Below are positions 7,657-34,181 of a stretch of DNA of 64,000 nt, one piece after another. Numbering within the stretch: position 1 is the first letter of the stretch; every line of letters begins with the position of its first letter. Location: NCBI RefSeq assembly GCF_021155765.1, contig NC_060114.1:4526001-4590000 (forward strand). The letters are read 5' to 3'. Position numbers and translations under genes: made by a program. This DNA is from Diprion similis (lineage: Eukaryota; Arthropoda; Insecta; Hymenoptera; Diprionidae). The notes below the pieces were generated by a model. That model was not told the origin of the DNA and searched no databases. It worked only from the letters and a program-made list of their open reading frames with translations.

Positions 7657-10600
7657 TTACATATCGGAGTGACTGAGAATGAGTTTCTTAGTCGGTAACG
7701 AATCAATCTCATCCATCTGATCGGCGTGCGACCTTTTTATCGGCAAAATCTTTTTAAAACTATTGCGCAACAACTCCGCATTAGCGTCGCTACACTTTTT
7801 CATGACTCCGTCCTGTACCCCTTTATTATTTTCTATCGAAACGACAGGCTCGGTTTCTACAGGTATAAAATTCTTTTTAAAAGAAGACAAAAAGCGCAGC
7901 TCATTCAATACTGTAGAAGGTTTTTGCTGATTTATCCAAGGTCTTTTGGCGTGAGGTATTTTTCTGCAAAGTTCTTGGTCGCACAACATTTTCACATCCG
8001 TGTTTTCTCTGTTCGAATTATTTTCCATCATATTTTCTACGCGGCCAGAACAATTTTTCCTGCTTTTTTCAACGCATTCGCAATTCTCTAAAGTCTCCTG
8101 TGAAACAGACTTTTCATCGTGCGAAGAATTTCCACTTTCGTAAGCATGAAGATTAGGAATCTTTGTCACCAGACTTTCAGGGTACGTTAGTTGTTCGCAT
8201 TCCTTGGATATCTTAGAGTCTAATGTATCTTCTCTCTCCTTGCAATTACTGACAACCTGAAAAGAATCGAAGCTGGAATTTCTCGAATCTTCTCTAGCCA
8301 AATCGTGACTTTTATTCAAAGAAGCACTCGAATCGCAGTTCAAAGAGGGCGAAACGATCGATCTCAGGCTTAAATTCATCACAGCTGATTGATCGATAGT
8401 TTGGGAATTTGGAGAGACCTGCTCCGCTACAAAACAATTTTTCCTCTCGTGCCTTGAAATTTCTCTGTCCGGATTCATCATCTCAATGTGTTCGCATTCT
8501 TTATCCCGTGTCTCTTTCTTCTTTGCAATACTAAAGTCGACAGGCTGTTCCATCACATTGTCAATATCGTTGCTCCCAAAGTCTGTTTCGTCATTTGCCG
8601 CATCGAATTTGCTCATGTATACGTCCATCAGTTTGAAACATTCCCCGACGACCAAGGAGCATTCGTTTTCGATTCCTTTCTTGCTTTCCCAGTAGATTTT
8701 AGTCAAGAAGTTCCATTGCTCGACGCATTCCTTCTGCGTTACCTCAAATCCTTCCACCTTCATCATCTCGGCTAATCTTCTCCAAATCGGCAGCGATCGA
8801 TCGTGGATCGATTGTCGTGCAGAATCCATTATAAACGCTTTGAGTTTGATCAGCCTTTGAACGCTGTCGGGGGTCCACAAAAATGACGAATCTCTGTTTC
8901 TCGTTTCAGAATTCAAACCTCCTGACGTGTTGAAGCACTCATCCATCAGCTGGAAATGCTGCCACTTGACAATTTCTCCCGACTCCTTTCGGCGAAGTAA
9001 TTTCTTGTACGTGTGACACAGGCTGGCGAATTTCCTACTACACTCCGCCGGCGTAACTTGATAACCAGCAGCGTTCATCTCATCAGCTATCGGCTTGCCA
9101 TATTTTCTCATAACTCTGATTTCCTTAGAGAATCGCAGTCTGACCAGCATTCTTGTCATCTCTTCGTTCCACACGAATTTGATCTTCGTTCTAAGGTTGC
9201 AAAAGTTCTCCATTTTGTTCGGCTTTACCGCCTCTCCACCCTCTGAGCGGACTATGTGGCCAATCTTCTGACGATCCCTGTTATAAACGGTCTTCAAATG
9301 ACTCCAGCGTGACGCACAAGCTTCGTAACAAACATTGTGACCAAGCCTCTGCATCGCAGAAGCGATATCCTTCCACAAAACTAGATCGTCGATGGATGGA
9401 CATTGGAATTGTATTTCTCTGTCAAGTTTCAACCGCAACAGCGAAAGCGTAGCCTCTTTTGACCATGGCATTATTCTCTCTTCTCCGTCGACGAGACTCG
9501 TGCATTCCTTGCACGTGTTTGACCTGTCTGCGACAAAACTATTGAAAACGTTTTGCATCCTGGAATCTGGGGCTGTAAAGGCTCTCCAACTCTCCTCGAA
9601 TTGCTTTACGTGCTCACCGAATGAGCTCAAAAACTTGGTCTGTTGAATTTCTACTGGGATTTCTTGTCCTTTCGAGTTCTCCTTGATGACAGTCGAATAC
9701 AGCTGGAATTCGTGTTCCGGAATTTTATCCCCAACACTAATTACAGACAAGTCTTGATCTCCTTCTCTTTCCTGTTTTGACGATGCCATGTCTTCTGTGC
9801 GGCTAATTTCGCTCTTGTCTACAATCTTTTGATCATCCTCTGAAGCTACCGTCTCTTGAAAACCACCATCGGTTTCAATTTTAGTCGGACTGTCCTGCAG
9901 TCCAGAAGAAGTTGAATTATCGACGAGTTTCTCTTTGAACTCATTCGGCGTCGATTGCCGATTTTCCACACTGACATTCATCGTTAGGTATTGTATTATC
10001 GTTTTGGTGTTCTGAGCGTTCATTTGGAACCCGCTGTGCATGTCTGCGAAATAGTTCCAATCGACTTGGTCTTTTTTAACGTATCCGCTGCTTACAGACT
10101 TTAGACAAATTTCGTAGCATTCGCAGAGTTCCATCCATTTGACCGAGCACTCGCTGTAAGTCGGTGAAAAATTGTACTTCTGCATTTGGGACGCGACGTA
10201 TTGCCACAAGATAACATATCTCTTGAACATGGCGAAAGCATCTTCCATAGGAATTCTTATGCCGATTAAAGTTTTGATCGAATCATCGCTCCAGTAAAAT
10301 TCCGCTGCTTTGTCGGGCCTTCCTTTCGATCTATCGAGTCCTGATTTTTTCAACACTCTATCCATTTGCCAAAAGTATTCGCCCACTGTGTCGAGCTTTT
10401 GATTATCAGAAATCTTTTTTAATGCGCTTTTTGCTTCTTTGCTGTACTGTCTCATCAGCTGGTCCCATTTTCGTTTACAATCTGTCCCTGACATTTGGTA
10501 ACCATGCAGAAACATCTTCCGGCTTATAAACGTGTTTATGCCTCGGTACATTTTAAGTATACTCTGTTTTTTCTCCTTGTCACTTTCGATGTATAATCTC

Positions 10601-11637
10601 AAGTCGACCAAACACTGAGTAGAATCGACGTCCCAGCAATTGTACAAAATCGTTTGATTATCATCTAAATTTTCCTCTCCGGTAGGAATTCGGGCCTTTT
10701 TACGATTGTTCTTTTCTTGTAAAGACGATGCGCTTGTACCTTCGATATCCGAGGCTGTGTTTTTAGCCTTCGCTTCGTTACCTTTGGTGACGATGTGTTT
10801 CGAATCGCCCTCATACCTCCACAATGGATCTTGCGAACTCAACTTCCGTTTTCTCACATTACTATGAGCTTTGGATTGTCTCTCATCAGGTTTTGCCTTT
10901 TTCCTCTCTGTCTCTGAATCTTTGATATTTTTGTCCAGAATCGTCTCAGCCACATTGATCGACTCGGTCAATATTTGGTGATTAGGTTCATCGTCGCTAC
11001 TCGTAATTGAAAAATCTTCTCCACATTCAAGGCTCGTCTTTTCAGTATTAACTTTCCCCGCTGCCTCGCTATGAGAATTCTTGTTTACTGGAGTAACAAT
11101 ATTACCAAAAGTCGGACTAGAATTTGATCTCGAGCTCAGGTACTCCGTCACATCTTCCATTATTTTCGAATCCACGTATTTGGATCGGAGTTTATAGAAA
11201 TCCTCAAACGCGGCGAAGTACGCCGATTTCGACAGTTCGTTTTCATCATCGATTTGAGTAAGGTTTACATACTCGGAGTAAAGAGCGTCCCATTTGGCCG
11301 AGCATTGTTTGCCCGTAACTGGGAAGCCCCTGTCGAAAAGCCGGCACGAAATATCTTCCCATAGAACAGCGGCTATGCCTAAAATATCGCCGCAATCATT
11401 GAACAATTCTTCCAACTCCATTCGGAACTTAAGTAAAACGTTGACACAATCTTTAGGAAAAGCGAAGTCGTCCGTTTTAACTTCGCAATCTCTGCTATCC
11501 AGGTCCAAACTCGTTTGGAAAATATTCTGATTCCTGGCAGGAACGATAACGACACTCTCGGGATCTCTTGAATCTGAGGTTTCGCTGTCGTCGAGTTTGA
11601 ATAATTTGACACAGTTCTCTGGATCAAAGTCTGCCAT
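7657..11637 (-). CDS. Six-repeat Myb/SANT-like (trihelix-type) DNA-binding protein, single exon, 1326 aa
   Basis: One uninterrupted frame from ATG (CAT at 11635-11637) to the stop at 7657. Six diverged copies of a helical module occur at about residues 62-155, 334-432, 448-540, 723-815, 820-905 and 919-1008. Each has the order W-x(5-8)-hydrophobic, W/I-x2-IA-x-x-M/L, a G-[YF]-x-[VM]-[TS] turn, then C-x(3)-[KRW]-[WF]-x2-L and Y-x(4)-K/R, as in Myb/SANT-like (Myb_DNA-bind_4, trihelix) and MADF-type domains. Linkers are acidic and Ser-rich. Basic clusters at 244-268 (including RKRK) and 313-317 look like nuclear localisation signals. The C-terminal third is disordered-looking with no domain I recognise. 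Likely role: nuclear, sequence-specific DNA binding, possibly of a repetitive site given six modules. The absence of introns is unusual among neighbours and could mean retroposition or TE domestication. No orthologue was recognised. The 5' UTR may contain a further exon. Confidence 0.85.
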   Translation of the reverse strand: MADFDPENCVKLFKLDDSETSDSRDPESVVIVPARNQNIFQTSLDLDSRDCEVKTDDFAFPKDCVNVLLKFRMELEELFNDCGDILGIAAVLWEDISCRLFDRGFPVTGKQCSAKWDALYSEYVNLTQIDDENELSKSAYFAAFEDFYKLRSKYVDSKIMEDVTEYLSSRSNSSPTFGNIVTPVNKNSHSEAAGKVNTEKTSLECGEDFSITSSDDEPNHQILTESINVAETILDKNIKDSETERKKAKPDERQSKAHSNVRKRKLSSQDPLWRYEGDSKHIVTKGNEAKAKNTASDIEGTSASSLQEKNNRKKARIPTGEENLDDNQTILYNCWDVDSTQCLVDLRLYIESDKEKKQSILKMYRGINTFISRKMFLHGYQMSGTDCKRKWDQLMRQYSKEAKSALKKISDNQKLDTVGEYFWQMDRVLKKSGLDRSKGRPDKAAEFYWSDDSIKTLIGIRIPMEDAFAMFKRYVILWQYVASQMQKYNFSPTYSECSVKWMELCECYEICLKSVSSGYVKKDQVDWNYFADMHSGFQMNAQNTKTIIQYLTMNVSVENRQSTPNEFKEKLVDNSTSSGLQDSPTKIETDGGFQETVASEDDQKIVDKSEISRTEDMASSKQEREGDQDLSVISVGDKIPEHEFQLYSTVIKENSKGQEIPVEIQQTKFLSSFGEHVKQFEESWRAFTAPDSRMQNVFNSFVADRSNTCKECTSLVDGEERIMPWSKEATLSLLRLKLDREIQFQCPSIDDLVLWKDIASAMQRLGHNVCYEACASRWSHLKTVYNRDRQKIGHIVRSEGGEAVKPNKMENFCNLRTKIKFVWNEEMTRMLVRLRFSKEIRVMRKYGKPIADEMNAAGYQVTPAECSRKFASLCHTYKKLLRRKESGEIVKWQHFQLMDECFNTSGGLNSETRNRDSSFLWTPDSVQRLIKLKAFIMDSARQSIHDRSLPIWRRLAEMMKVEGFEVTQKECVEQWNFLTKIYWESKKGIENECSLVVGECFKLMDVYMSKFDAANDETDFGSNDIDNVMEQPVDFSIAKKKETRDKECEHIEMMNPDREISRHERKNCFVAEQVSPNSQTIDQSAVMNLSLRSIVSPSLNCDSSASLNKSHDLAREDSRNSSFDSFQVVSNCKEREDTLDSKISKECEQLTYPESLVTKIPNLHAYESGNSSHDEKSVSQETLENCECVEKSRKNCSGRVENMMENNSNRENTDVKMLCDQELCRKIPHAKRPWINQQKPSTVLNELRFLSSFKKNFIPVETEPVVSIENNKGVQDGVMKKCSDANAELLRNSFKKILPIKRSHADQMDEIDSLPTKKLILSHSDM

Positions 11638-11894
11638 CTTGATCTGGATTAGGGAAGGAATAATAAAAAATTATTTTATTGGGGAAATTGATAGTTTATT
11701 CACTCATATTTATACATTGCAAATCGTGTTTTATCTTGATCTCAGGGTCAAGACCACTGATTAATTTAAAGGTTTGTTTAATTCCGTGATTTTGGAAAGC
11801 TCATGTAAGAATTATAACTGACAACAATAATTTCCTCCAACTATAGTTGATGGATGAAGTGAAAAATATATCATTTGTTTTATACACGGAGTGA

Positions 11895-16893: not shown

Positions 16894-18119
16894 AAAGCAA
16901 TACTGTCTCAGATGTTGTGTACATACATCTAAATTTGGATCAGAGCTCAAATAACATGAAATCAACCATTCGAGAAAAATTGTAAACATTTTTTACAGCA
17001 TTTTATTTATAAGCCTTATTTGTAACAATTTGTGAATCAATTCGGCACGTAGAGTTAATTTTACCTCATCGCTGTGTACAGTTTATAAAAATTTCTCTAA
17101 GTTACTGAACGAGTATTGAGTACTTACGAGAAAATCCAGACAGAAATTAAGGTGAGATATCGTGAGAACCATAAAACACGTTACCGAGCGAAATGGTTGA
17201 CGTTAACGTCAAAAATAGTACCTTAATGTATTAAACTATTATACTGAGAAGAGTAGTCAAATGAAGCTTGATCTACATTCTTTCGAATCATCACGAACGT
17301 CACATTCGCAAAATGATCGCTTTTTAATGCGTCCGCATTCGTGCAATTCAGGGTACATCTTGCCGTAATTCTCCTGTATTTTGGCAACTGACAATGAAAA
17401 TGCATTTTACCGATCGAGATTTGGCTCGATGACTGTTCGTGATTGATTGGCCAACTCCGCATTACGCTCGTCAATCGGCAACCATGCAACAAATGTCGAT
17501 CGGCAGAACCTACACTTGATTGCCTGAATGCAGGCGGATTTTAATCAGATACAGTAATATTCATTATGATATTGAAGGAAATAATATTCAATTATGTGAC
17601 AATGACTTGCGATGCATCTGACGTAAGAGATTGGGAGGCATTGTTTCCTAACGAGCTACCTTGTTTCCGGTCTGTAGAGTGATATCAGTGATATTCATCA
17701 ATGCCAACCCTTTGCGGATACGTTGTTTTCAATCTTAAGGTGCTTATAAAGACCCGTTGTACACCTCGAAAACGCGGGGATGCAAAACTCCTATACCGCT
17801 CGAGCGATCACAGTGAAATTTGGGCAATTAATGCCTTATTTTGGCAAAAACTGGAGCGTCTTTTTACTTTTTCAAAATTTTGAAAAAAATTTCACAGATT
17901 GGTTACCACCTACAGAAATTGGCCAAATTTTCACAGTTGCACTGAATGGATCGAACTATCCGGTCTGATGCCAGTCGGCGGTGATAAAATACACATTTTG
18001 AGCCCAGTCCCATGAGATTTGATAAACAACATGCGAGTGCCATCTTATACGAATTATGTGACAATGACTGTCATTCTCCGACGTCAGCTGCATCGCCAAC
18101 CATTTGAATCGTCATAATG
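16894..18119. other. Intergenic region between the converging TSEN34 and calpain 3' ends
   Basis: TSEN34 (plus) and the left calpain (minus) converge here. From 17188 on, the DNA belongs to the left arm of the large inverted duplication and continues into the calpain stop codon. No independent gene is supported; an 89-codon frame at 17223-17492 (minus) recurs in the other arm only because the DNA is duplicated. Confidence 0.6.
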
Positions 18120-21100
18120 CTAAACCGCGAACCATACTCTGAGCAAGAACTCTTCTTCTTCGTTACAAACTAGTTTCATTCTCCCGTCGATTTTGGCATA
18201 GATACTTGGAATGACGCAGTAAACTCCGGGTTCCAATTTGAATACGTTGTAGACTTCGCGCAATCCCGGTCCTGATCCGGATCCATCTACCGGTTTGTTT
18301 CTTCTAAAGAAATCTATACCCAGTGGCGCGGATGATTGATCAGCGTCTTTCACCTGGTCAGAAATAGGAAAAAACGATTCATTTTCTCAGGTTCCTTCAC
18401 TGTCCGAATTTTCGAAATCCGTTATGTGAAGTGGAAGTGGTAGCGTACCTGATATACTTCAAACCCAATTTCGAGATATGGGGCACGTTTCATTCTCCGG
18501 TTTTTTTGCATCACTGCAATGAACATTTTGCGTTTACCATCCAGATCGTTCAAATGTTCCAACGTTACGAAAAACTGTCTGTTTCGGGACAGTATTTCTG
18601 GAAAAAAAGTAAAATTGATAGACAATTAGCTGCAGACTGTAGTCACGAATAATTTCCATCCCTTGGAATGTGAGCATATCCGGTATATTGTTTTCTCTTA
18701 GAATTCAGGCGAAATTGTACCGATCGATATTTTTTGGTGTTTTTTTTTTTTTTTTTTGGTGAAACGATTCATTGGCGATTATGTAACAAATATTGATCCG
18801 TAGAATCTACTATCAGTTACCGAAATGCGGACGGATTTTGACAATGGTCTCTACTCTGAATTGCATAAATTCAGGGGGAAAAAAGCGGGTGAAAATATTG
18901 GAAAATTATAACTGGACAGCCACTTATTCGATTAGATGGGGGTTTGTTTTGTTCATAGCATGTAAATTGAGCCGCGTTGACATATTTTTTTATTGCATAT
19001 ATTCTGTACTACCCACGATATTTCGAACAGTCGTCATTTATTCGAAAAAAAATCCTGGATCGCGGCAACAAGGCTAAAGCATCTCAGAATAGCGTCTTCA
19101 CATTTGAGGTAAATCATTCGAGCAGTTGTTTTTAGATAGCATGGGCTTCGCAAAATCTGTCATCGAACGAAACGGTTGACGTTATTGTCTATAAGATTGC
19201 GTCATGTTGATTGATTTTAACGAAAGAATATGCATACAAAGCTTGATCAACGTACTTTTAATTAAACCAGGCCTCAATTGAATCGAATTATTGGTTTCCG
19301 AGATGTAAGTTCCCGTAATTTGTTCATTTTTTCAGCCGTCCATAACTCGCATTATAACACTCGAAGGAAGAAGGTGGAATTCAATAAGTACATTGAGATT
19401 ACTCACCCGCACGATCATTGACTCCAGCAGTTAGCTCTCGACGTACCCATTTCCCTTCGAATGACACAAGGTTACATTTATCTTCAAACATGCTCTGGAA
19501 GTCAGGATAGCAAATATGTGCGAGAGAAAAATGATTCAACATCCTCTTGAAAGGTATATAAAATTCGCCGTCATTCGCCGGCTCGAAATTTAGTGCCTTT
19601 CTCATGTCTTCGTCAATCCATACTTCATCCCTGTTGAGAAAGTTATTTACAATTAATCCAATTGACTGGACGATTCACTCGATTCTTGCGACGAGACATC
19701 CCCAAGAAATATCGCTTACGAGTCTCGAAACGGTCCTCGCCACTCAGCTTCGTTACCCCACGGATTTCTCAATCGCAGTAACTCGAATCCCTTGTAATTG
19801 CTTACTTCGACGACACTGTACACATGTTTTCCCACTATGCCGCTGTCTATGTTACCAATGCCCCTAGCAAAAATGGGTTCCTGACGCTGGAAGAATTGAG
19901 GGACATTAGTCGACAGGCGTTTAAAGTCGTGAATCCAGCCTTGAGCAAATTATTCGTCATCATAACGGGTTGGAAGCAGTTGACAATTTGTCTGATATAG
20001 TGACGGAAGTTTCCACATATGAGCTTGAAAATCTTCCGAGTCGACGTGAACGTCGGTATATTTGATTGCTTACCGACTTCGACTGACATGCTATTAAAGC
20101 ACGCCGTTTTTGAGCGTGATGAAAAGTGGGAAACTTGGGCGAACGCTGAGGGTCATTCAATGGGTGGGTCACTGATATTCCGCCGGTAAAATCTTCCAAC
20201 GCTTCGGAAGCTTGACCATATTCTATGGCCTCCCAGGAACCATACAGTTTCGCGTAAGCTTTCGCGACCAGGGATGTCCAGAATTCGTTGCTGTCCGACG
20301 AACGCGCACATACCAAGCCCTCTGAATCCGTTGGTAGACGATCGTCAATCACGACGTCCACCCATTTCCCGTACCGCCAAAATCTAATCACGCATAAAAC
20401 ACTCGGAATGATTCATTGATTCGTTAAATCGCCCAAGAAAAAAAAAAAATAGAACTCTCACTGGATTCGAATTTTCCCAAAAATAGTGACAAAACTTAGA
20501 TCTAGTTAGGTCAGTCAATTTTTTTCGTGGGTAGGTTCCCTCTCCTATGAAATGACGAGTAGAGCGAGTTCTTTTACGAGTACCTGAAATGAAATATCCC
20601 AGCATAGTCTTCCTGGAAGCTTTGATCCTTCGGTACAACTTTGTATAACAATTTCGGACGCATTGCTAGACTTGACAAAGCGGCGATGACCCAGCAATCA
20701 CTGAAATCACGTTGCTTGGCATCGAATCGTGATACTCCGTCGACAAAAAATTGAGGATTGCTCACTATTTCCTGTAAACAAATAAATGCCCAGTGATAAT
20801 ATTTCTGTGCTTACTTCGGGGCTTGAATTACGATGATAGGCCAATTAGCGCCAATTCCGTCTCGGAGGAAAGATTTTCGTTCGGCAACCACATGACAGTT
20901 CGTAATTTATTTATTCTACGGCTGAGCGATTGAACTAATCGATTACTCGGAATTCCTGATTATTCTATGGATCGGGAAAATGCATAATCGCAATTTTAAT
21001 TCAATCGGTGAATCGAAAAAAACCATCGAAATCTGCAAGTTTATACTCTATCCACCATGCGTCACAAATATAGGGTATTGGACGATGAATTGGAGACTAA

Positions 21101-22365
21101 ATGTAAATGAAAATTGCTTCTTGTACCTTTGGACGTTTCCACACGACGTTCCCGGAAAATTTGCCAGTTGGAATGCCGCTAGGAAACAAGGAAGAATCCG
21201 CCGCCGGGAATTTTGGATCTTCAAACAAGACTTGCTCGGACAAACATTCTTGCTTCAGGTTGAGAAAAACTTGCGTGGCGTCATTTGGTTCGGGATGTAA
21301 TGGACTTTCTCCCAGCTGATGAAAAAGTTGAATTATTATTCGGTTATAAGATTTGTTTTCCTCATCTTCACACGATTCATGAAAAAAAATCGTTCGTACA
21401 ACAAATTGAAAAAGTAACGGTAAAACGTTTCATGTTTTTTTTTCGAATTTTCTCGAATTTTTTATAACATATATAATAATTTTGGATACTTCGAAATTTA
21501 TCTATGATATTTTCTACCTTTGCATTTTGGCTACATTTCAAATACAAAACGAAACTTCTTTGTTGTACGAATGATTGGAAAACTGTTTGAAGTATAAGTG
21601 AGTGAGTGATTTTTTTCTGAAGCAGTCAAAGTTTCCGGTACAAGCAGCGAGAAATAAATCGTTGAAACATCGATGCCAATAATAGTATCATTATTTGAAG
21701 AGTTTGATGAAAACTTCAGGGCAAGACCAATTCCAGAGGTTTCGAACAAAATACGGATTGATGAATACGTTTGGACAATATTTGGCACATTTCAGCGTTG
21801 CGTAAGTTGCCTCTAAAAATATATGCATTATGCATTATCGTTATCTTCTTTTTTCCAATTTTTAACAGCTAACTACTAGTATTCTAGAATTTTTCTATGG
21901 AATTTTGTAGTAGTTCTTGCCTAGTTTCAGAGAAAAAATTTCTACCGAAGTTGATTTTTGGTATCGATCATTAATCGATGATCCGTTCGTTATGATAGAT
22001 TGAATTCGGATCAGCCTTCGACGATTCGATCTCATTCACATTCATAAAGTAATGACGCAACTCTATTTATCCAGCAATTGTACCTTGGAAACGTTGCCTC
22101 TGCGACTTTCGTTGATTCTCGGCGACGATGTAGACGCGCCTTCGTTCCTGTGAAGAAATAACTTGTAGCGATAGTCGTTCATTTCACCAAAATAGAGGAT
22201 GCACATAATTTTGTCATTTTTCATACTGTCAGTTTTCTGAAAATTCGCTTCGCCATCAGTCGAGTCACTTTCGGAGCAAGGCTTTTACTGAAATGTGTGA
22301 ATTATTCAATCAACTTACTCTTGCGAATCGTTTTCAGGGACCTCGATGATCTTGGTATTCGACAT
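18120..22365 (-). CDS. Calpain-type cysteine protease lacking the penta-EF-hand domain, 523 aa
   Basis: Nine exons, minus strand: 22319-22365, 22084-22147, 21127-21315, 20584-20771, 20074-20383, 19720-19886, 19407-19630, 18449-18597, 18120-18353. All junction phases agree (1572 nt with stop). Residues 1-37 form a Ser/Asn-rich leader and about 80-90 the LFEDPKFP motif that precedes calpain cores. The protease core carries Cys126 in FSDCW, His287 in GKHVYSV and Asn307 in LRNPWG, so the triad is intact. KLYGSWEAIE and EDFTGG are further calpain landmarks. Residues about 397-523 form the C2-like/CBSW domain (LEPGVYCVIPS and EEEEFLLRVW near the end). The stop follows directly, with no EF-hands, whereas classical calpains have a roughly 170-residue penta-EF-hand domain. 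Expected role: Ca-regulated limited proteolysis in the cytosol. Exon 6 was chosen to start at 19886 because the alternative acceptor near 19864 breaks the frame. Confidence 0.85.
18872..19340. repeat. Hairpin-type interspersed repeat, copy B (calpain intron)
   Basis: The left end GGGGGAAAAAAGCGGGTGAA and right end TTCATTTTTTCAGCCGTCC are imperfect reverse complements. The centre contains CGGTTGACGTTATTGTCTAT. The left half and its flank (from about 18765) match the reverse complement of copy C near 35.5-35.7 kb. The element lies between calpain exons 7 and 8. Confidence 0.55.
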
Positions 22366-25300
22366 CTTGATACGATCGTATGAATCGTCGACGCAGATTT
22401 TCTATCCTTATTTGCAGTGGATTGAAGAATATGCAGATTGTACTTTCCAGTTCAAATCAATCCTCACACCTAGGATTATTGCAAGTTAATAACAACAACA
22501 ATAATAATAATCAGGGATGTGACGTAAAGCAAATTTTCCGTATAACACGATACTGGGTATCCGGCAGCAAAAAGTCGTACGCAGCCGTTCTTATTGGCTG
22601 CAGCGACGCACGCGATGCGTTGCTATACTGTGTAAAGTCATGAAGACTCTTCATTGCAGCAGGAAAAACTTATAGAGAAAACAGAAAAACCTTTTGTTGC
22701 CACAAAACGTAGAATTGATACCGTTTATTATGAAAAATATTACAATAGCAAACTTTGTACACTCAACGTTCATCCTCATCGTTCCGTTGTTAAGACTAGG
22801 GAATTTTATATCCCGTCGTTCAACTGTTGCATTTCTTTTATTGCTTCGACCTGAGCCAATATTGTAATTTCGCCCTATAGAGCAGATTAGTGCTGTACCG
22901 ATAGCGGATAGTAATCGGATGTCCGGCACATAATGAATAATAAGCTCATCAAATATTTCATTTGTCAAGTTGAAGTTCATACTTTTTCGTCAATTCATGA
23001 GCGAGTTGGCTGGGCATTGAGATTTTATAAAATTTATCAATATTTCCAAGTTAATATAATTTTTCTTGAAATTCCAAAACGGCAAATTAGAAAATTGTAA
23101 ACAAGAACTTAGACAAATCAATATTTCATTCAAAATGTGGTTATGGGGGTTTGGGTTCTAGGACTTATTTCGTTGGGATATCATTGGGTTTAATGTTTAT
23201 GCGATTTGGTTAGTTGGATTCAGCTTCGGAAGCTTGAGTCTTGAGGTTAGATGGTTTAATTGTTTAGAATATATTTTTTTTCTTTGTTTTCAGAGCTATG
23301 AAAATTCCTGAGGTGACGGGATTAAATCGACCTCAGATTTGGATTCGGCGACCCAAAAAACGCACAATAAACATGGTTTGACCTCTGGGTCCAAAACTCG
23401 ATTGTTTTTTGTGTGTTTATGTTATCCAAGTTCACTCAAAAATGAGAGCGGTAAAAAAATTAAAAATGATAGTAATTAAAATTCACGTTAAAACAACTTT
23501 TGGTTTACTTTCAATCAATTTATAGTCGACAAACATCAGGAATTGGTAAAAATAATTTCAGGAATGCAAATGTCCATTAATTTCGTGTTAAAAAACTCTC
23601 AGGGATGTTTAATTCATCGATTTGTAATCAAGAGACACCGATTCGTGATTCAAAAAACATCAGAATTTGCCGAAAACAATTCTATTTACCTCACACTCTA
23701 GGGCACTGCGAATTTTAACAAAAGCTGTTTGCGGACTAAACCATCGGCACTTGGGAAATTTATAGAGTCTACTAGTGTACAATTATTTACTATATAGTTT
23801 GAGTCTACCCTCCACCCTTCTAGGAAGAGGAGACGGATTGGACGAGGCACGAGTGACCCTCGTTACCATTTGAGGGTTGGAAATCTGTAAAAATCTTATA
23901 AATCCTGTGTACTTAGTTTCCGGAATGGCGAAATAGTTTAGAATAATGCGAATGTGATAAAGTTCCAGAATGCTATTATCGCCTGATCAAATAAGCTGGA
24001 AAGTATCGACTCACCACTCATCAACCTCTTTGATGTATGTTGTTCAACTTTTTGTTCCTCGACTCCAGTTCTCGACTGCAGGATGCACTCGGCGAAGGAA
24101 TTCAGCGAGACTGCCGAAAGGCGAACCTTGGCACAGGATTATAAGTAATGCCAGACCGGAAAATGGGCTGGAGATTACACGGAGAATCGGTGTAAACAGA
24201 AACCGCAATCTCTAGGACGAAAATAACTTCCACACGAAACTAGAGTAAAGTGCAGTTCGGTGAAAGTTGTCGGAAATATTCGAAAATCATAGGAAATGGT
24301 CGAAAGTTTAGAACGTTGTGGTAACTCGTCGAAAATCGTAGTAATTTGCATTGAAAATTATAAAAATCTACTATCCATTTTCAGTAAAAGATAATTACGA
24401 TTTCGGACGCAGACAAACAAATTGTTTCTTATCGTAGCATTCTTAGAATTTCATTTCAAAGTCCCATTAATTTGTTGAAAATAACTTAACTAAAATGCGT
24501 CAATTAGCGATTACCAACGATGAAAAAAGTTATAATTTCGTGGTAATTCATCAAATTCTGAATAAGTACACCAACTTCTCAGCAGAGACAGACCAAAGAA
24601 TCCTAATCTTGGTCACTGCTCAACGGGAAACATATTTTTTGCAGAGACAGACGTTTCAATTCGATGAATTCATTCGATTCTGACCATTCACCATGTATTC
24701 GTAACGCCGTCGACAACAGCAAGCAAATCATGAATTTGTCGATAGACAATATCACGTACGATGATATAGAAATATCTCGTCGACGCTCCAAATTCTGTAC
24801 TTTCACCTCCATCCGATTCATTTCACTTACGCGACCGGCTGACCGTTCGTCAACGTTCAAGCAATTATTGTGGGCGACTGCCTGACTAGGCAAACGAATC
24901 TCACTTTTGCCCCTGAGCCGAACCCTTGCCGCAATTCCAAATATTTGCCATGTCGAAAGTTACTCAGTTTTTGTTATCTGATGTTTGCTCGGAGCGTAGG
25001 TATTACTTGTCCAGCACGATAAATACTCTTCGGATACAACGACGACAAAAGTATTTTTGCAGTCGGTATTTTACAAAAAGTCACGTGTCTGCTCGCTTTT
25101 TCACGTTTCTGCTATTTCCTTTCGTATCTGCTACATTCGCTGGGTTTGCGAGGCCAAGATCACGTCAAGGCCAGCTTAGGATTTTCGGAAATCGGAAAAA
25201 TAGCTTTTTTGTTGATCTACGAGTTTGTCAAGTTTTAACAAAATGTCACCCGTGAATTAATGTATGAATCCTCATCCAAGTCTCAAGGAATCCTGTGTAT

Positions 25301-25864
25301 AATACCGATGTTGAAGAAGTAAGAGTTTGGGATCAGAGCCAACCATTCGTTACCCAGTTTGCGGATGTCCACTTCCTTGTTAAAAATTTACTTCTTTGTT
25401 AGAAAATTTAATAGATTCGTTCGATTTCATTCCCGCAATGGTTTGTTTTATTCAGAAGTTGACTATTTCTCTAAATTCTCGTTGAGGCACTTTGTCGTCG
25501 CAGTATTATCGGTGAATATTCGATTTTTAACAATCGCATGGATATTGACTTTAGTTTTGAAAAACCAGCCAATTTAATTGTATCATTGGCAGCAGCAAAA
25601 AAAAAATGAAAGTCATTTCAAGTGAGAAATCGATTTATCTAAGCTCTTGTTGACAATGTTACTATTTTATTTTCTGGAATTAGATGAAAAACCATCGTAT
25701 AGCTTGGGAATATTAATAAATTTTATAAACTCTCAATGTTCGGCCATCTCGCTCATATATTGATGAGAGGGTATTAAAATTCAACTGGACAACTGAAATT
25801 CCTCGACAACTTAATTTTTACTTCGTGTCAAATTCCGAAGTTTCTCGTAAAGATTGTTATTCGG
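22366..25864. other. 5' flank of left calpain and spacer between the inverted arms
   Basis: 22366-22935 is the presumed promoter of the minus calpain and the inner end of the left arm. 22936-25864 is unique spacer, except for about 260 bp near 23930-24190 that recur directly at 28315-28570. No coding exon was recognised. Frames at 24603-24893 (minus) and 24926-25255 (plus) lack any recognisable motif or splice support. Confidence 0.55.
23930..24190 (+). repeat. Direct repeat, copy 1 (copy 2 at 28315-28570)
   Basis: Shared landmarks in the same order: TTAGAATAATG, AATAAAGTTCC/GATAAAGTTCC, GACTCACCACTCA, AACCTCTTTGATGTATGTTG, TTCTCGACTGCAGGATG, GACTGCCGAAAGGCGAA, CACAGGATTATAAGTAATGC and GGGCTGGAGATTACACG. 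The copies are about 90% alike by eye and read in the same orientation, unlike the surrounding inverted arms. Confidence 0.85.
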
Positions 25865-27949
25865 GATGTGCTGGATATCCGGTTACTATCCGGTATCGGT
25901 GATGCACTAATCTGCTGTAAGAGAAAATTAAAATATCGGTACAAGTTGGAGCAATCAAAAAATGGAACGATTGAATGAAGGGATATGAAATTCCCTACTT
26001 TTAATGATATGATTAGGATGAACGTTTATTATGCAAAGTTTCCTATTTTAATATTTTTTATAATAAACGGTATCAATTCTGCGTTTTGTGGCTACAAAAG
26101 GTTTTTCTGTTTTCTCTATAAGTTCTTCCTGCTGCACTTAACAGTCTTCCCGAATTTACAGAGTTTAGCAACGCATCGCGTGCGTCGCTGCAGCCAATAA
26201 GAACGGCTGCGTACGACTTTTTGCTGCCGGATACCCAGTATCGTGTTATACGGAAAATTTGCTTTACGTCACATCCCTGATTATTATTATTGTTGTTGTT
26301 ATTAACTTGCAATAATCCTAGGTGTGAGGATTGATTTGAACTGGAAAGTACAATCTGCATATTCTTCAATCCACTGCAAAGAAGGATAGAAAATCTGCGT
26401 CGACGATTCATACGATCGTATCAAGATGTCGAATACCAAGATCATCGAGGTCCCTGAAAACGATTCGCAAGAGTAAGTTGATTGAATAATTCACACATTT
26501 CAGTAAAAGCCTTGCTCCGAAAGTGACTCGACTGATGGCGAAGCGAATTTTCAGAAAATTGACAGTATGAAAAATGACAAACTCATATGCATCCTTTATT
26601 TTGGTGGAATGAACGACTATCGCTACAAGTTATTTCTTCACAGGAACGAAGGCGCGTCTACATCGTCGCCGAGAATCAACGAAAGTCGCAGAGACAACGT
26701 TTCCGAGGTATAATTGCTGGATTAATAGAGCAGCGTTATTACTTTATGAATGTGAATGAGAAGGAATCGTCGAAGGCTGATCCGAATTCAATTTATAATA
26801 ACGAACGGATCATCGATTAATGATCGATACCAAAAACCAACTTCGGTAGAAATTTTTTCGCTGAAACTAGGCAAGAACCACTACAACATTCCATTGAAAA
26901 ATTCTAGAATACTAGTAGTTAGCTGTTAAAAATTGGAATAAAGAAGAGAACGATAATGCATAATGCATATATTTTTGAGACAACTCGCGCAATGCTAAAA
27001 TGTGCCAAATATCGTCCAAACGTATTCATCAATCCGTATTTTGTTCGAAACCTCTGGAATTGGTCTTGCCCTGAAGTTTTCATCAAACTCTTCAAATAAT
27101 GATACTTTTATTGGCATCTATGTTTCAACGATTTATTTCTCGCTGCTTTTATCGCGAACTTTGACTGCTTCAGAAAAAAATCACTCACTCACTTATACTT
27201 CAAACAGTTTTTCAATCATTCGTAAAACAAAGAAGTTTCCTTTTGTATTTGAAATGTAGCCAAAATGCAAAGTTAGAAAATATCATATATAAATAAAGTT
27301 AGAGGTTCAGCATTATGAATTATGACGATTCAAATGACTGGCGATACAGCTGACGTCGGAGAATGGCAGTCATTGTCACATAATTCGTGTAAGATCGCAC
27401 TCGCATTTTGTTTAGGATCGAAAACAAGGTATCTGCAAAGGTATGGCAATAACGAATATTATTGTACAGACTGAAAACAAGGTTGCTTGTTCGAAAACAA
27501 TGCCTCCCAATTTCTTACGTCGGCTGCATCGCGAGTCATTGTCACATGATTGAATATCAATTCAATATCATAATGAATATTACTGTATCTGATTAAAATC
27601 CGCCTGCATTCAGGCAATCAAGTGTACGTTCTGCCGATTGACATTTGTTGCATGGTTGTCGATTGACGAGCGTAATGCGGAGTTGGCCAATCAATCACGA
27701 ACAGTCATCGAGCCAAATCTCGATCGGTAAAATGCATTTTCATTGTCAGTTGCCAAAATACAGGAGAATTACGGCAAGATGTACCCTGAATTGCACGAAT
27801 GCGGACGCATTAAAAAGCGATCATTTTGCGAATGTGACGTTCGTGATGATTCGAAAAAATGTAGATCAAGTTTCATTTGACTACTCTTCTCATTATAATA
27901 GTTTAATACATTAAGGTACTGTTTTTGACGTTAACGTCAACCATTTCGC
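25865..27949 (+). repeat. Right arm of large inverted duplication, internally deleted
   Basis: Reverse complement of the left arm: 25865-27293 matches 22935 down to about 21496, and 27304-27949 matches 18120 down to 17188 with a further internal loss. The junction at about 27294-27304 brings calpain intron 2 sequence directly to the DNA at and below the calpain stop codon. The junction lies between AAAATATCATATATAAAT and CAGCATTATGA. Confidence 0.85.
26426..26707 (+). pseudogene. Duplicated calpain exons 1 and 2 without the rest of that gene copy
   Basis: Exon 1 copy 26426-26472 and exon 2 copy 26644-26707 correspond to the first 37 codons of the left calpain with only two nucleotide differences in 111 nt (Gly to Asp, Lys to Glu near the end). 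ATG, donor GAGTAAGTTG and acceptor TTTCTTCACAG are intact. Exons 3-9 of this copy are deleted. It is either a dead fragment or, because exon 2 ends in phase 0 and the plus-strand calpain core starts in phase 0 at 30060, an alternative 5' end for that gene. I cannot tell which. Confidence 0.7.
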
Positions 27950-28314
27950 AATAAAATAAACCGCTTTGCAATGAAATCGAACGTCTCTATTAGATTTTTA
28001 AGGAATGGCCGATATTTATAGGCTCTAATTTACAATTCCCATGTTTTTGTTCCAAATATGTATGGAAACCATCGTACCTTAGGAAAATATTATGGAATTC
28101 CCGGAGCACTAAGAAATGTTTCGAAATTCTTCCAAATTCTTTAAAATCCGTCAAACTCGTATGAAATCCTGTGAAATACTTATTTTTCGGAATGAAATCG
28201 AATGATTAGACTTTTATTAATTCAAAGTGATTTGAAATGAAAAGTGAACGTTTGACGATAAACTCTGGTTTCAAATTTTCGTATTTCTTTTTCTAAATTT
28301 TTAGCAAAATCGCC

Positions 28315-28570
28315 ATAGCTTAGAATAATGTGAATGTAATAAAGTTCCAACAGGCGATTATCGCCCAATAAAATAAGCCCGGAAAGTTTCGACTCACCAC
28401 TCACCAACCTCTTTGATGTATGTTGTTCAACTTTTTGTTCCTCTCCTCCAATTCTCGACTGCAGGATGGACTCGGCGAAGAAATTCAGCGAGACTGCCGA
28501 AAGGCGAAGTTTGGCACAGGATTATAAGTAATGCTGGACCGGGAAACGGGCTGGAGATTACACGCAAAAT
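28315..28570 (+). repeat. Direct repeat, copy 2 (copy 1 at 23930-24190)
   Basis: Same order of landmarks as copy 1, from GCTTAGAATAATGTGAATGT to GGGCTGGAGATTACACG. The two copies flank the spacer side and the outer side of the right arm, as if the arm had been inserted or rearranged between them. Confidence 0.8.
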
Positions 28571-29526: not shown

Positions 29527-32500
29527 ATGAGCACCAAGGACCTTACTGTGGAAATTTCGAAGGTATATAATCGCACGTTCAATTGCTTTCATTTTCCTTT
29601 AAATAAAACATTTCTTTATACAATTGTACAGATAGGAAATTGGGATGGTTATCAGCCTCAATTTTGTTCACCAGATAATTTATTTTATAACAATATTGAC
29701 TGTTTCTTGCGTATTTCAAGTTATCCAGTATTTGATTCAAATCAAATATCAGGTATGAAATTTTTACTTCAATTTCCCCCAAATTTCAGGAAAATATTCA
29801 CAGTCAAAGTTATTAATCAAGTTTCTGGAAGAAAACTTGAACACCTTTCATGTATACCCAAAGTAATTAGATGAAATTAATTTGTAATTTGATTGGCTGC
29901 TGGTTTACTAAGCAAAATCAATTCTCCAAACGCACAAATCATTCGAATCATTCACCGTGATTTTTATAAGAAAGAAAATAACAAACTTACACGTAATCGC
30001 ATGAGCACCTTCCGTTACTGTGAACATTTTATCGACTAACAAATTAACTATGTTCTTAGACCAATAAGGAAGGTGATGGGGAATTCCAAGACTTCCATCG
30101 AATCAAAAGAGAATTGTGTTCGAAGGGAAAACTGTTCGAAGATCCACTATTTCCGGCAGTATATACTTCTTTATTTCCCAAAGAGATTCCCAAAAACCGT
30201 ACTGCATACAAGTACGTTAAATGGGTACGACCAAAGGTAAAGAATCATCTTGATCGATCGATAAAACAGACTCGGGCTGTCCGTGGTACGGATAATGTGA
30301 GATGATTAGAATTAATTTTGAAATGAAAACGATTTATACAATTAACGGTGATTTCAATGTTTCAACTCTCTATAAGGAAATTGTTAGTGAACCGAAATTT
30401 TTCGTGGATGGAGTCTCTCGATTCGATATCGAGCAACATGGGTTCGGCAATTGTTGGCTAATCGCGGCAATATCTCGACTGGCTATGGATCCAGAGCTGT
30501 TGTTCCAAGTCGTGCCTCAGGATCAGGACTTCGACGAAAACTACGCTGGAATATTCCATTTCAGGTACGTGCACATCGATTTCAGTTGCAACGGAAAATT
30601 CCGAGGGTCGTTGTGATTTGAGGTACCAACCATAAGACCTTGATTCCATGAGTTTCTTCAAATTCCTTCACCGTTTGTTTGAACCTCCCGCGCAGATTTT
30701 GGCGGTATGGAAAATGGATCGAAGTCGTGATTGATGACCGTCTCCCAAGACTTGGGACTGCTCGATCGAGTGAAGTAACTGAGTTCTGGAGCGCTTTGCT
30801 CGTCAAAGCTTACGCCAAGTTTTACGGCTCCTGGGAGGCCACCGAAGACGGTGAATCGAACGAAGCTTGGCAGGATTTTACCGGTGGTCTGACTTCGGTT
30901 TACGACTTGGACGTTGCACGGCCAATACCTTTCGAACTTTTACTGGATGCTCAGGAAAAGAAGCTGCTTATGGGATGCGGTACGCCTAAGGTACGGATCC
31001 CCAGACAAAAACCACTTTAACCCTTAACGGCATATTGGCATCCCAGAATGCCACCTGTTTTAAAACACGTTTTTACGATTTTAGAGTAGTTTTATTCGAT
31101 TTAACCGGTTTTTTTGTTGTAATTTTACGATCTTCATATGTTAGAGGATCAAAGTTTACGTTCAAATTGTTTTTATGTTTCGTTAATTTGTTTATATAAA
31201 TTAACAAATTCTGAAAAATAGCACTTTTTTTTAGAAAAAAATCTATTATTGAAGATAGTTTTAAGATTATCCTTACGATTTTTGGTAGGCAGGGGTTTTT
31301 AGGGTCGCTGATTACGAATCCGTTATCAGATTTGCAAAATTCAAAATGGCGGACACAATATGGCGGCTGTACACTTCAAATGATGGATTTTATGACCGCA
31401 AAACGATTGCAATTAATTTGAAAGTATGGAAAAGATCTTGGGTTTTATTATTTGCAAAGGTCAAACGACTTTTTGCGTTTCGGTCCGCCATCTTGAATTT
31501 CTAACTTTTGAGTGCGGATTCGTAATCTGCGACCGAGTACCAACTTTCGCTCTCGTCTAACGAGTTTTTGCACGTTTGGTCCGCCATATTAAATCCGCCG
31601 TCTTGAATTTTCAAATTTTGTGTGCATATTCGTAATCAGCGACCCCAAAAATCCTCGAGTACAAAAGTTCAAGTCGATGGTAAGTAAGGAAAAATGTGTG
31701 CCGCTAAGAGGTAATTAGACCTAGAGCAAGAAATCACCTGGAAATTAAAAAGCGTCAGCATTTTAGAGTTTCTTTCATATTTTCGTAAAAAAGTTTTTAA
31801 TCCAGTACATCTCTACGGCAATGATTTAATAAAGAACGTTAGAAAAGATAAATCCACTCACGTTTCGTCCGGTTTCGATTATTTCTCCTCCCAATTTTGT
31901 GAATGTTCAATTATTCTCACAGATTCTGAAGAAACGTGAAGGCTTGTACAGTAATCATGCCTACTGTATTACGCAAGTCTCTAAGTACAAGGGGAAAGAT
32001 ATGGTGAGGCTGAGGAATCCATGGGGTCATGAGGAATGGACAGGCCGTTTTTGCGATGAGTAAGTATTTGTGTATCTACTTCTATTTATTCCACATTTTT
32101 ACCATTCAGGAAATAACAGCAGCGATCCCGAACTTCTTAATTTGTGTTTATGAGAAAGCCCGATTAATTTTTCAAACAAAATGCAATAAGTTAGTAGTTA
32201 ATTGAACCAATTTTTTGACAGCGATCCTGTGTGGAAAGCTGATGTTGAGATGGCAAAGGCGTTGAACGTCAAGGCTGACGAAGACGGCGAATTTTGGATG
32301 CCCTTCGAATTGGTTTCGGATTATTTCGCTGCACTTGAAATTTGTGACACGCTCAATGTAGGCACAAAACAATTGGAAATCATTACTTTTGAAGGAGAAT
32401 GGAAGTACGAGACTTCTGCGAAGGGTCACTTGAGTACGTATCTTTTGAAATTGATCATCTTCATTGCAGAAACTATCATATTTCTCGTATTGTGTAAGGA

Positions 32501-33110
32501 TCCGATGTTTGAAGAAAATCTCAATTCGTTTCTGTATATTTTTCCACATCTCACTCTGGTTTTTGGGTCTTTAGTCCCAGTTCTGTGGAATAAGTTTTGC
32601 ACTATTTCTAGGAACGTTGTCACAAAATCCCCAATATCGTATAACGTTGGAAAAATCGAATCAACCGGAGGAAAACTGCACGATAATCGTGGCATTACTG
32701 CAGAAAAATCGAAGGACGAAACGACTAAAGAATCTAAGAATCGGATTCGAAATTTATCAGGTACGTCTGGGTTTTCAATAATTCCAAAGAACATATTTTC
32801 GTCGAAAATGACTATCAAGAAATCATCACCTTTTAACTTTTCCAAATAGTTGGACGATTCTGAGAAATCACCAAACCCCCTGGACATGAATTTTTTCCAA
32901 AAAAATGAGTCCATATCTGGATGCGGTCCGATTGGAACGAACCGCGAAGTTCAGCGCAAATTCGAACTGGTTCCCGGAGTTTACTGTATAATTCCTTGTG
33001 TCTACCGGGAGAGTAGCTCGAATAAGGGAGTCGAATTCCTGGCCTTTTCCGACGAAGAAGAACAATTCTTGCTCAGAGTTTTCTTGGGGAATTCAAATAC
33101 CTTGATATAA
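29527..33110 (+). CDS. Second calpain-type cysteine protease, no penta-EF-hand, 484 aa as modelled
   Basis: Modelled exons: 29527-29562, 30060-30236, 30377-30564, 30696-30990, 31923-32059, 32222-32433, 32612-32760, 32850-33110. Phases agree throughout (1455 nt with stop). The core keeps Cys97 (FGNCWLIAA), His244 (SNHAYCI) and Asn264 (LRNPWG), with the same His-Asn spacing of 20 as the left calpain. FYGSWEATE and QDFTGG follow the Cys. The C2-like domain ends LVPGVYCIIPC then EEEQFLLRVF and a stop, so no EF-hands. Exons 3 and 7 have exactly the lengths (188 and 149 nt) of their counterparts in the left gene, yet protein identity there is only about two thirds by eye: this is an old paralogue. 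The 12-codon first exon is the weakest part; the duplicated exons at 26426-26707 could substitute. A piggyBac-like MITE sits in the intron after exon 4. Confidence 0.82.
31017..31716. mobile_element. piggyBac-like MITE in a calpain intron
   Basis: The left end reads TTAA then CCCTTAACGGCATATTGGCA, followed by a small hairpin (TTGGCATCCCAGAATGCCA). The right end TGTGCCGCTAAGAGG is its imperfect inverted copy, followed by TAAT (degenerate TTAA). TTAA plus CCCTT termini with a subterminal hairpin are typical of piggyBac-type elements. Internal inverted blocks share GATTACGAATCCG/ATTCGTAATCAGCGACCCC and GCGGACC motifs. No transposase frame. Confidence 0.6.
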
Positions 33111-33881: not shown

Positions 33882-34181
33882 CCACCAGGTTTTCTATCTT
33901 TTGGATTCTGCGCTTCAGGTCTTTTACCTGGGCTATTTGGACTTTTAAGACTAGCGCTCCGTAGTTCCTGCGCTTCAGGTCCTTCACCTGGGGAATTTCG
34001 ACTTCCGGGTTACTTACTCGGTGAATTGCGACTCCTAGATCTTCTACCTGGTGATATTGGAATACCAGGACTAGCGCTCCGTGGATTCTGTGTTCCAGGT
34101 CTTTTACCTGGGAAATTTGGACTTTTAGGACTAGCGCTTCGTAGTTCCTGCGCTCGAGTTCCTTTAGCGCTCAGGTTTTCT
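33882..34181. repeat. 30-bp minisatellite, 10 units, open in two strands
   Basis: Ten contiguous 30-bp units alternate between types such as GCTTCAGGTCTTTTACCTGG and CTTTTAGGACTAGCGCTTCG, each unit being 10 codons. The plus frame (33690-34214) is open across all units and reads as Leu/Pro/Gly-rich decapeptides. The minus frame reads as Ser/Arg/Pro-rich decapeptides (RSASPKSPNFPGKRPG-like) and is broken by one TAA at about 34013. No start, splice or domain support establishes a gene on either strand; the minus reading looks more protein-like in composition. Confidence 0.85.

Follow-up and report, generated by a model that had tools for sequence, protein, structure and literature searches.

Partial gene duplicates, or duplicated pseudogenes, that arise by inverted segmental duplication are the closest described counterparts of the locus reported here. 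In these, as in our case, the start region, the first exons and the introns were copied, the body of the gene is absent, and the parent gene lies adjacent. Nothing essential separates our locus from them; here the 3′ flank is kept as well, so that the gap in the copy is internal and not terminal.

Two other systems show a more limited likeness. For palindromes of mammalian sex chromosomes, two reports (PMC3723533, PMC8981503) describe gene conversion from arm to arm, and our locus resembles these palindromes in having inverted arms, parts of which are much more similar than the sequence around them. In contrast to those described there, the arms here are short, their identity is patchy, and conversion is deduced and not observed. 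For Drosophila yakuba, a report on tandem duplications (PMC5460883) describes new expression patterns through exon shuffling. Similarly, the partial copy at our locus lies upstream of another gene, to which it could supply a promoter and first exons; unlike those duplications, it has the opposite orientation to its source, and any transcript from it would be hypothetical. We found no description of this locus in the literature at the level of titles, which is no proof that none exists.

The window, by which we mean the whole 64-kb stretch of DNA analyzed (4526001-4590000 of contig C10), was compared with itself by BLAST. Positions 21496-23137 paired in inverted orientation with 27294-25614 (88.6% identity, 1,688 columns, E = 0), 17188-17738 with 27949-27412 (92.0%), and 18023-18118 with 27414-27319 (92.7%). 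The three matches were mutually collinear, and the same arms came from a separate self-comparison. The initial annotation had described two blocks that recur inverted and in order and had proposed a dot-plot as a check; the blocks are borne out, and a comparison of this type recovered the collinear inverted matches. Its outer limits, 17188 and 27949, also stand. Its inner limits, 22935 and 25865, do not, because homology continues at lower identity to 23137 and 25614; the arms thus reach ~200-250 bp further inward, and they enclose a spacer of 2,476 bp (23138..25613) instead of the loop of roughly 2.9 kb that had been proposed.

In the left arm, which reads on the minus strand, the 5′ block (21496..23137) holds most of intron 2, exons 1-2 and the 5′ region of a calpain gene, here called L, followed by a relic of a hAT transposon and the DNA upstream of this relic. 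The repeat-rich 3′ block (17188..18124) is situated behind the stop codon of L. In the right arm, on the plus strand, the inverted copy of the 5′ block (25614..27294) runs from the upstream DNA through the hAT relic, the 5′ region and exons 1-2 into most of intron 2, and the 3′ block, delimited by self-BLAST and alignment, occupies 27312..27949. The earlier treatment of 17188-18120 as one shared block holds for its flanking parts but not for ~17735-18023, which is found in the left arm only. Near its outer end, each arm also contains a perfect palindrome of 16 bp, TTGACGTTAACGTCAA (17197-17212 and 27925-27940).

An assembly artefact could mirror a sequence in this way. However, the window contains no N, and the arms differ locally by up to 23%, with indels and an insertion private to one of them. 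Such mismatches, indels and a private insertion do not fit a mirrored assembly, and misassembly seems unlikely in the extreme.

The genome was searched with 25614-27300 and with 17188-17734; among the limited candidates scored, no further copy similar to the arms in both length and identity was found, which makes a local segmental duplication more likely than a spreading repeat. Outside both arms lay 4 of the 6 matches to 25614-27300 and 41 of the 43 to 17188-17734, counts that are lower bounds; these matches covered only pieces of up to ~225 bp, at 68-91% identity. The whole segment is therefore not a high-copy repeat, although its 3′ block holds dispersed repeat pieces, matched by all five fetched stretches. 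Searches for RNA genes gave no match at gathering scores with Rfam in 16000-36500 and no gene with ARAGORN in the window. Elsewhere in the window, an open frame of 1,337 codons on the minus strand (7657-11670) contains six Myb/SANT-like domain stretches.

The parent gene L (18120..22365, minus strand) is intact and was modeled with nine exons that encode 523 amino acids with Peptidase_C2 and Calpain_III domains (Pfam, E = 9.9e-95 and 1.3e-21). Exons 1-5 lie at 22319-22365, 22084-22147, 21127-21315, 20584-20771 and 20074-20383, and exons 6-9 at 19720-19886, 19407-19630, 18449-18597 and 18120-18353. The exon borders of this gene, like those of gene R below, were picked by eye; all introns of L have GT/AG borders, and the model forms a single open frame.

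A second, intact calpain gene, R (29527..33110, plus strand), which the initial annotation overlooked, starts 1.6 kb past the right arm. Its model, made by eye and matched by Pfam (E = 1.9e-92 and 1.6e-25 for the two domains), has eight exons that encode 484 amino acids, beginning with a short first exon (12 residues) that ends in phase 0. R is a paralog of L; the two agree in 227 of 474 aligned columns, a count that includes the stop. Behind R, an open frame of 196 codons contains imperfect direct repeats (33902-34164), in pairs that align over 83 columns with 88% identity and over 89 columns with 78%.

When L was aligned with m-calpain 1df0, Cys, His and Asn were found in the columns that we take to be catalytic; where L has the Cys, 1df0 carries Ser. 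By their Peptidase_C2 domain with these residues, L and R belong to the calpain family. No EF-hand family was among the Pfam matches of the two models at E ≤ 0.001, and both models stop after Calpain_III; as modeled, neither would be a classical calpain with a C-terminal penta-EF-hand.

The calpain family has many members in this genome: in a Pfam search, 36 matches to Peptidase_C2 were listed at the level of exons, spread over six contigs (C3, C6, C10, C11, C12 and C14). One of them, L063 (C10:3352500-3358500), resembles R but has several stops in its exon matches and is apparently a decayed paralog. Another, L054 (C10:4804500-4814000), is a further calpain gene ~260 kb from L, whose N-terminus, as read by eye, is apparently encoded by one exon, compared with two in L. 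A search for L-type or R-type N-termini in 11 calpain-containing stretches (L054-L064, two of them overlapping) gave seven alignments with a best score of 35, obtained without a chance control, and none was accepted as homologous.

Alignment of the arms bears out the earlier claim that exons 3-9, from intron 2 to the stop codon, are missing from the right arm while the 5′ region, exons 1-2 and the 3′ flank remain. From the equivalent of ~21496, in intron 2, the right arm jumps to the equivalent of ~18125, beside the stop codon, so that ~3.37 kb of L, with exons 3-9, is absent. In its place stands a junction (27295..27311, plus strand) with some ten bases of filler, at which ATTATGA is repeated. 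Where L has its stop codon, TAG, the matching site of the right arm reads CAG. As intron 1 and most of intron 2 are present together with the 5′ region and the 3′ flank, the right arm is a partial gene duplicate made at the DNA level.

The two exons that remain are open. Exon 1 (26426..26472, plus strand) has the donor GTAAGTTG, the same as in L, and exon 2 (26644..26707, plus strand) ends in phase 0 with the donor GTATAATT. The truncated copy cannot encode the L protein because exons 3-9, and hence the catalytic domain, are absent. It is most likely a truncated pseudogene with no product of its own.

We consider the following course of events the best explanation, with a probability of about 0.65. 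A segment with gene L and its 5′ and 3′ flanks would have been copied long ago in inverted orientation to a place between L and the oppositely oriented paralog R. The gene body, from intron 2 to the stop codon, would have been lost in a single deletion of end-joining type, either during the duplication or later; that there is just one junction, with filler bases and a short repeat, was counted in favor of this explanation. The arms would then have diverged, by 17-23% where undisturbed, two stretches would have been re-homogenized by gene conversion between the inverted arms, and a repeat would have inserted into the left arm and not into the right one. The right copy would be left as a pseudogene.

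The copy might instead have been born with its gap, if replication had switched templates, read L backwards in two parts and then gone back, so that a 255-bp segment was duplicated on either flank. Such a segment does lie in direct orientation on either side of the right arm, at 23933..24187 and, on the far side, 28315..28570 (both plus strand), with 26 mismatches in 255 positions, which is within the range of the arms; its middle is strongly conserved, and a genome search found only these two copies. However, the two copies do not abut the right arm but lie 1.4 kb and 0.37 kb away from it, with other DNA between, so that they may record a separate event, and a later simple deletion accounts for the gap equally. 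We regard an origin by template switching as possible but doubtful.

Another inverted pair, at 25396-25458 and 27952-28001, lies near the outside of the right arm and might mark the ends of a transposable element that captured and moved it. The first member is part of a dispersed repeat, matched by all seven fetched stretches at 79-86%, one of which also matches 27952-28001. However, 156 bp lie between one end and the arm, the pair is just 77% alike over 66 columns, no target-site duplication was recognized by eye, and a genome search with 27925-28320 matched only itself. Capture by a transposon is thus very improbable.

The divergence of the arms is uneven. The initial annotation was right about the inverted duplication but missed that the divergence is a mosaic and that the left arm has a private insertion. 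In the hAT relic, 50 of 298 positions are mismatched, and upstream of the relic 46 of 202 (17-23%). In intron 2 the figure is 33/587 (5.6%), in intron 1 6/171, in exon 2 2/64 and in exon 1 0/47, while the 260 bp before the start codon, taken here as a putative promoter, have a single mismatch. The 3′ block has 31/535 and 9/101 mismatches and contains one perfect run of 197 bp.

Stretches with at most one mismatch reach 393 bp in the 5′ block, around the start of the gene (22233-22625, 1 mismatch), and 217 bp in the 3′ block; each of these lengths was reached in 0 of 20,000 permutations, as was the perfect 197-bp run of the 3′ block (17281-17477). In the 5′ block, which entered the permutations only up to 22780, perfect identity extends over 215 bp at most, a length reached in 12 of 20,000. 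Uniform divergence of the arms is rejected and the near-identical tracts lie beyond chance under it, but the permutations do not separate gene conversion from constraint, which could yield the same tracts.

Two features favor conversion. The 197-bp run is situated in the 3′ flank, where it overlaps sequence that has dispersed relatives (68-69%) and for which constraint would be a poor explanation, and the part of intron 2 that was kept shows much lower divergence than the hAT relic. The divergence changes steeply near the boundaries of repeats, at ~22626 (hAT relic) and ~17574-17582 (a small dispersed repeat), a placement that constraint on the non-repeat DNA or faster change of the repeats would also explain. 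Within the preferred explanation, gene conversion between the arms is probably, on balance, the cause.

The hAT relic of the left arm covers 22632..22935, of which 22632-22748 matches hAT sequence directly and the remainder was assigned through alignment with the right arm. Three genomic stretches, L048-L050, are 77-78% identical to left-arm 22632-22748, and 80% (138 columns) and 87-91% (35-38 columns) identical to the right arm; an open frame in L048 matches Pfam Dimer_Tnp_hAT (E = 2.2e-21). The homology on the hAT side might represent older, independent copies of a repeat, but the arms are collinear through the relic and for ~200 bp beyond, and for that reason we set this reading aside as less probable. 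Two of the hAT-bearing stretches, L048 and L049, lie ~45 kb apart on contig C2; positions 938-2201 of the former and 175-1438 of the latter, one inverted relative to the other, show 100% identity along 1,264 bp or more, the identity reaching the end of the fetched L048. The pair may be very recent copies or an inverted duplication.

The left-arm insertion (17735..18023, ~288-289 bp), which faces a gap in the right arm, is one of the terminal arms of an inverted-repeat element that is dispersed in the genome. Of the 69 genome matches listed, from 40 of 1,084 candidates scored, 66 fall on it or on part of it. About two fifths of the spacer is also matched elsewhere in the genome (43 matches listed, itself included), at positions 2-288, 683-756, 796-1050, 1074-1342 and 2248-2336 of the 2,476.

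The position of the truncated copy suggests another possibility, in which the right arm would act as an alternative promoter and 5′ exon pair of R. Its exons at 26426-26472 and 26644-26707 would be spliced to R exon 2 (30060), and R would gain a 37-residue N-terminus of L type in place of its own 12-residue one. Orientation and order suit R, the two exons have stayed open with GT/AG borders kept, the frame joined to R is open through R exon 2, and the sequence before the start (1/260) and exon 1 (0/47) are nearly unchanged. Exon 2 and R exon 1 also agree in phase, but such agreement is expected from their common descent. Both differences in exon 2 alter the protein (G to D and K to E). Moreover, R has its own first exon, a layout that we read by eye also in L054, and so does not need the right-arm donor. 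Between donor and acceptor there are eight AATAAA and two ATTAAA, a count of little weight that comes without a chance expectation. Splicing of these exons to R is thus rather unlikely in our judgment. We would say much the same of a living copy whose promoter and two N-terminal exons serve R, so that R would be regulated in the manner of L and have a second possible N-terminus, while conversion from L would hold the borrowed promoter close to its source.

The initial annotation also proposed that the arms could form a cruciform and give rise to double-stranded RNA; a hairpin transcript of this kind might regulate L. Long inverted arms are indeed present. However, L and the truncated copy both point away from the spacer and would yield the same sense sequence, so that a transcript through both arms is not expected from gene orientation, though read-through or antisense transcription may occur. 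The reading of a cruciform or a source of double-stranded RNA is thus not supported, and we consider a hairpin RNA that regulates L highly implausible.

The locus is confirmed as an ordinary inverted duplicate of part of a gene, with divergence that is a mosaic. Its value lies mainly in being a clean example of such a duplicate, in whose arms old sequence alternates with sequence that was apparently renewed. Should the right arm indeed supply R, the locus would offer a modest example from nature of a promoter common to paralogs and kept alike by gene conversion.
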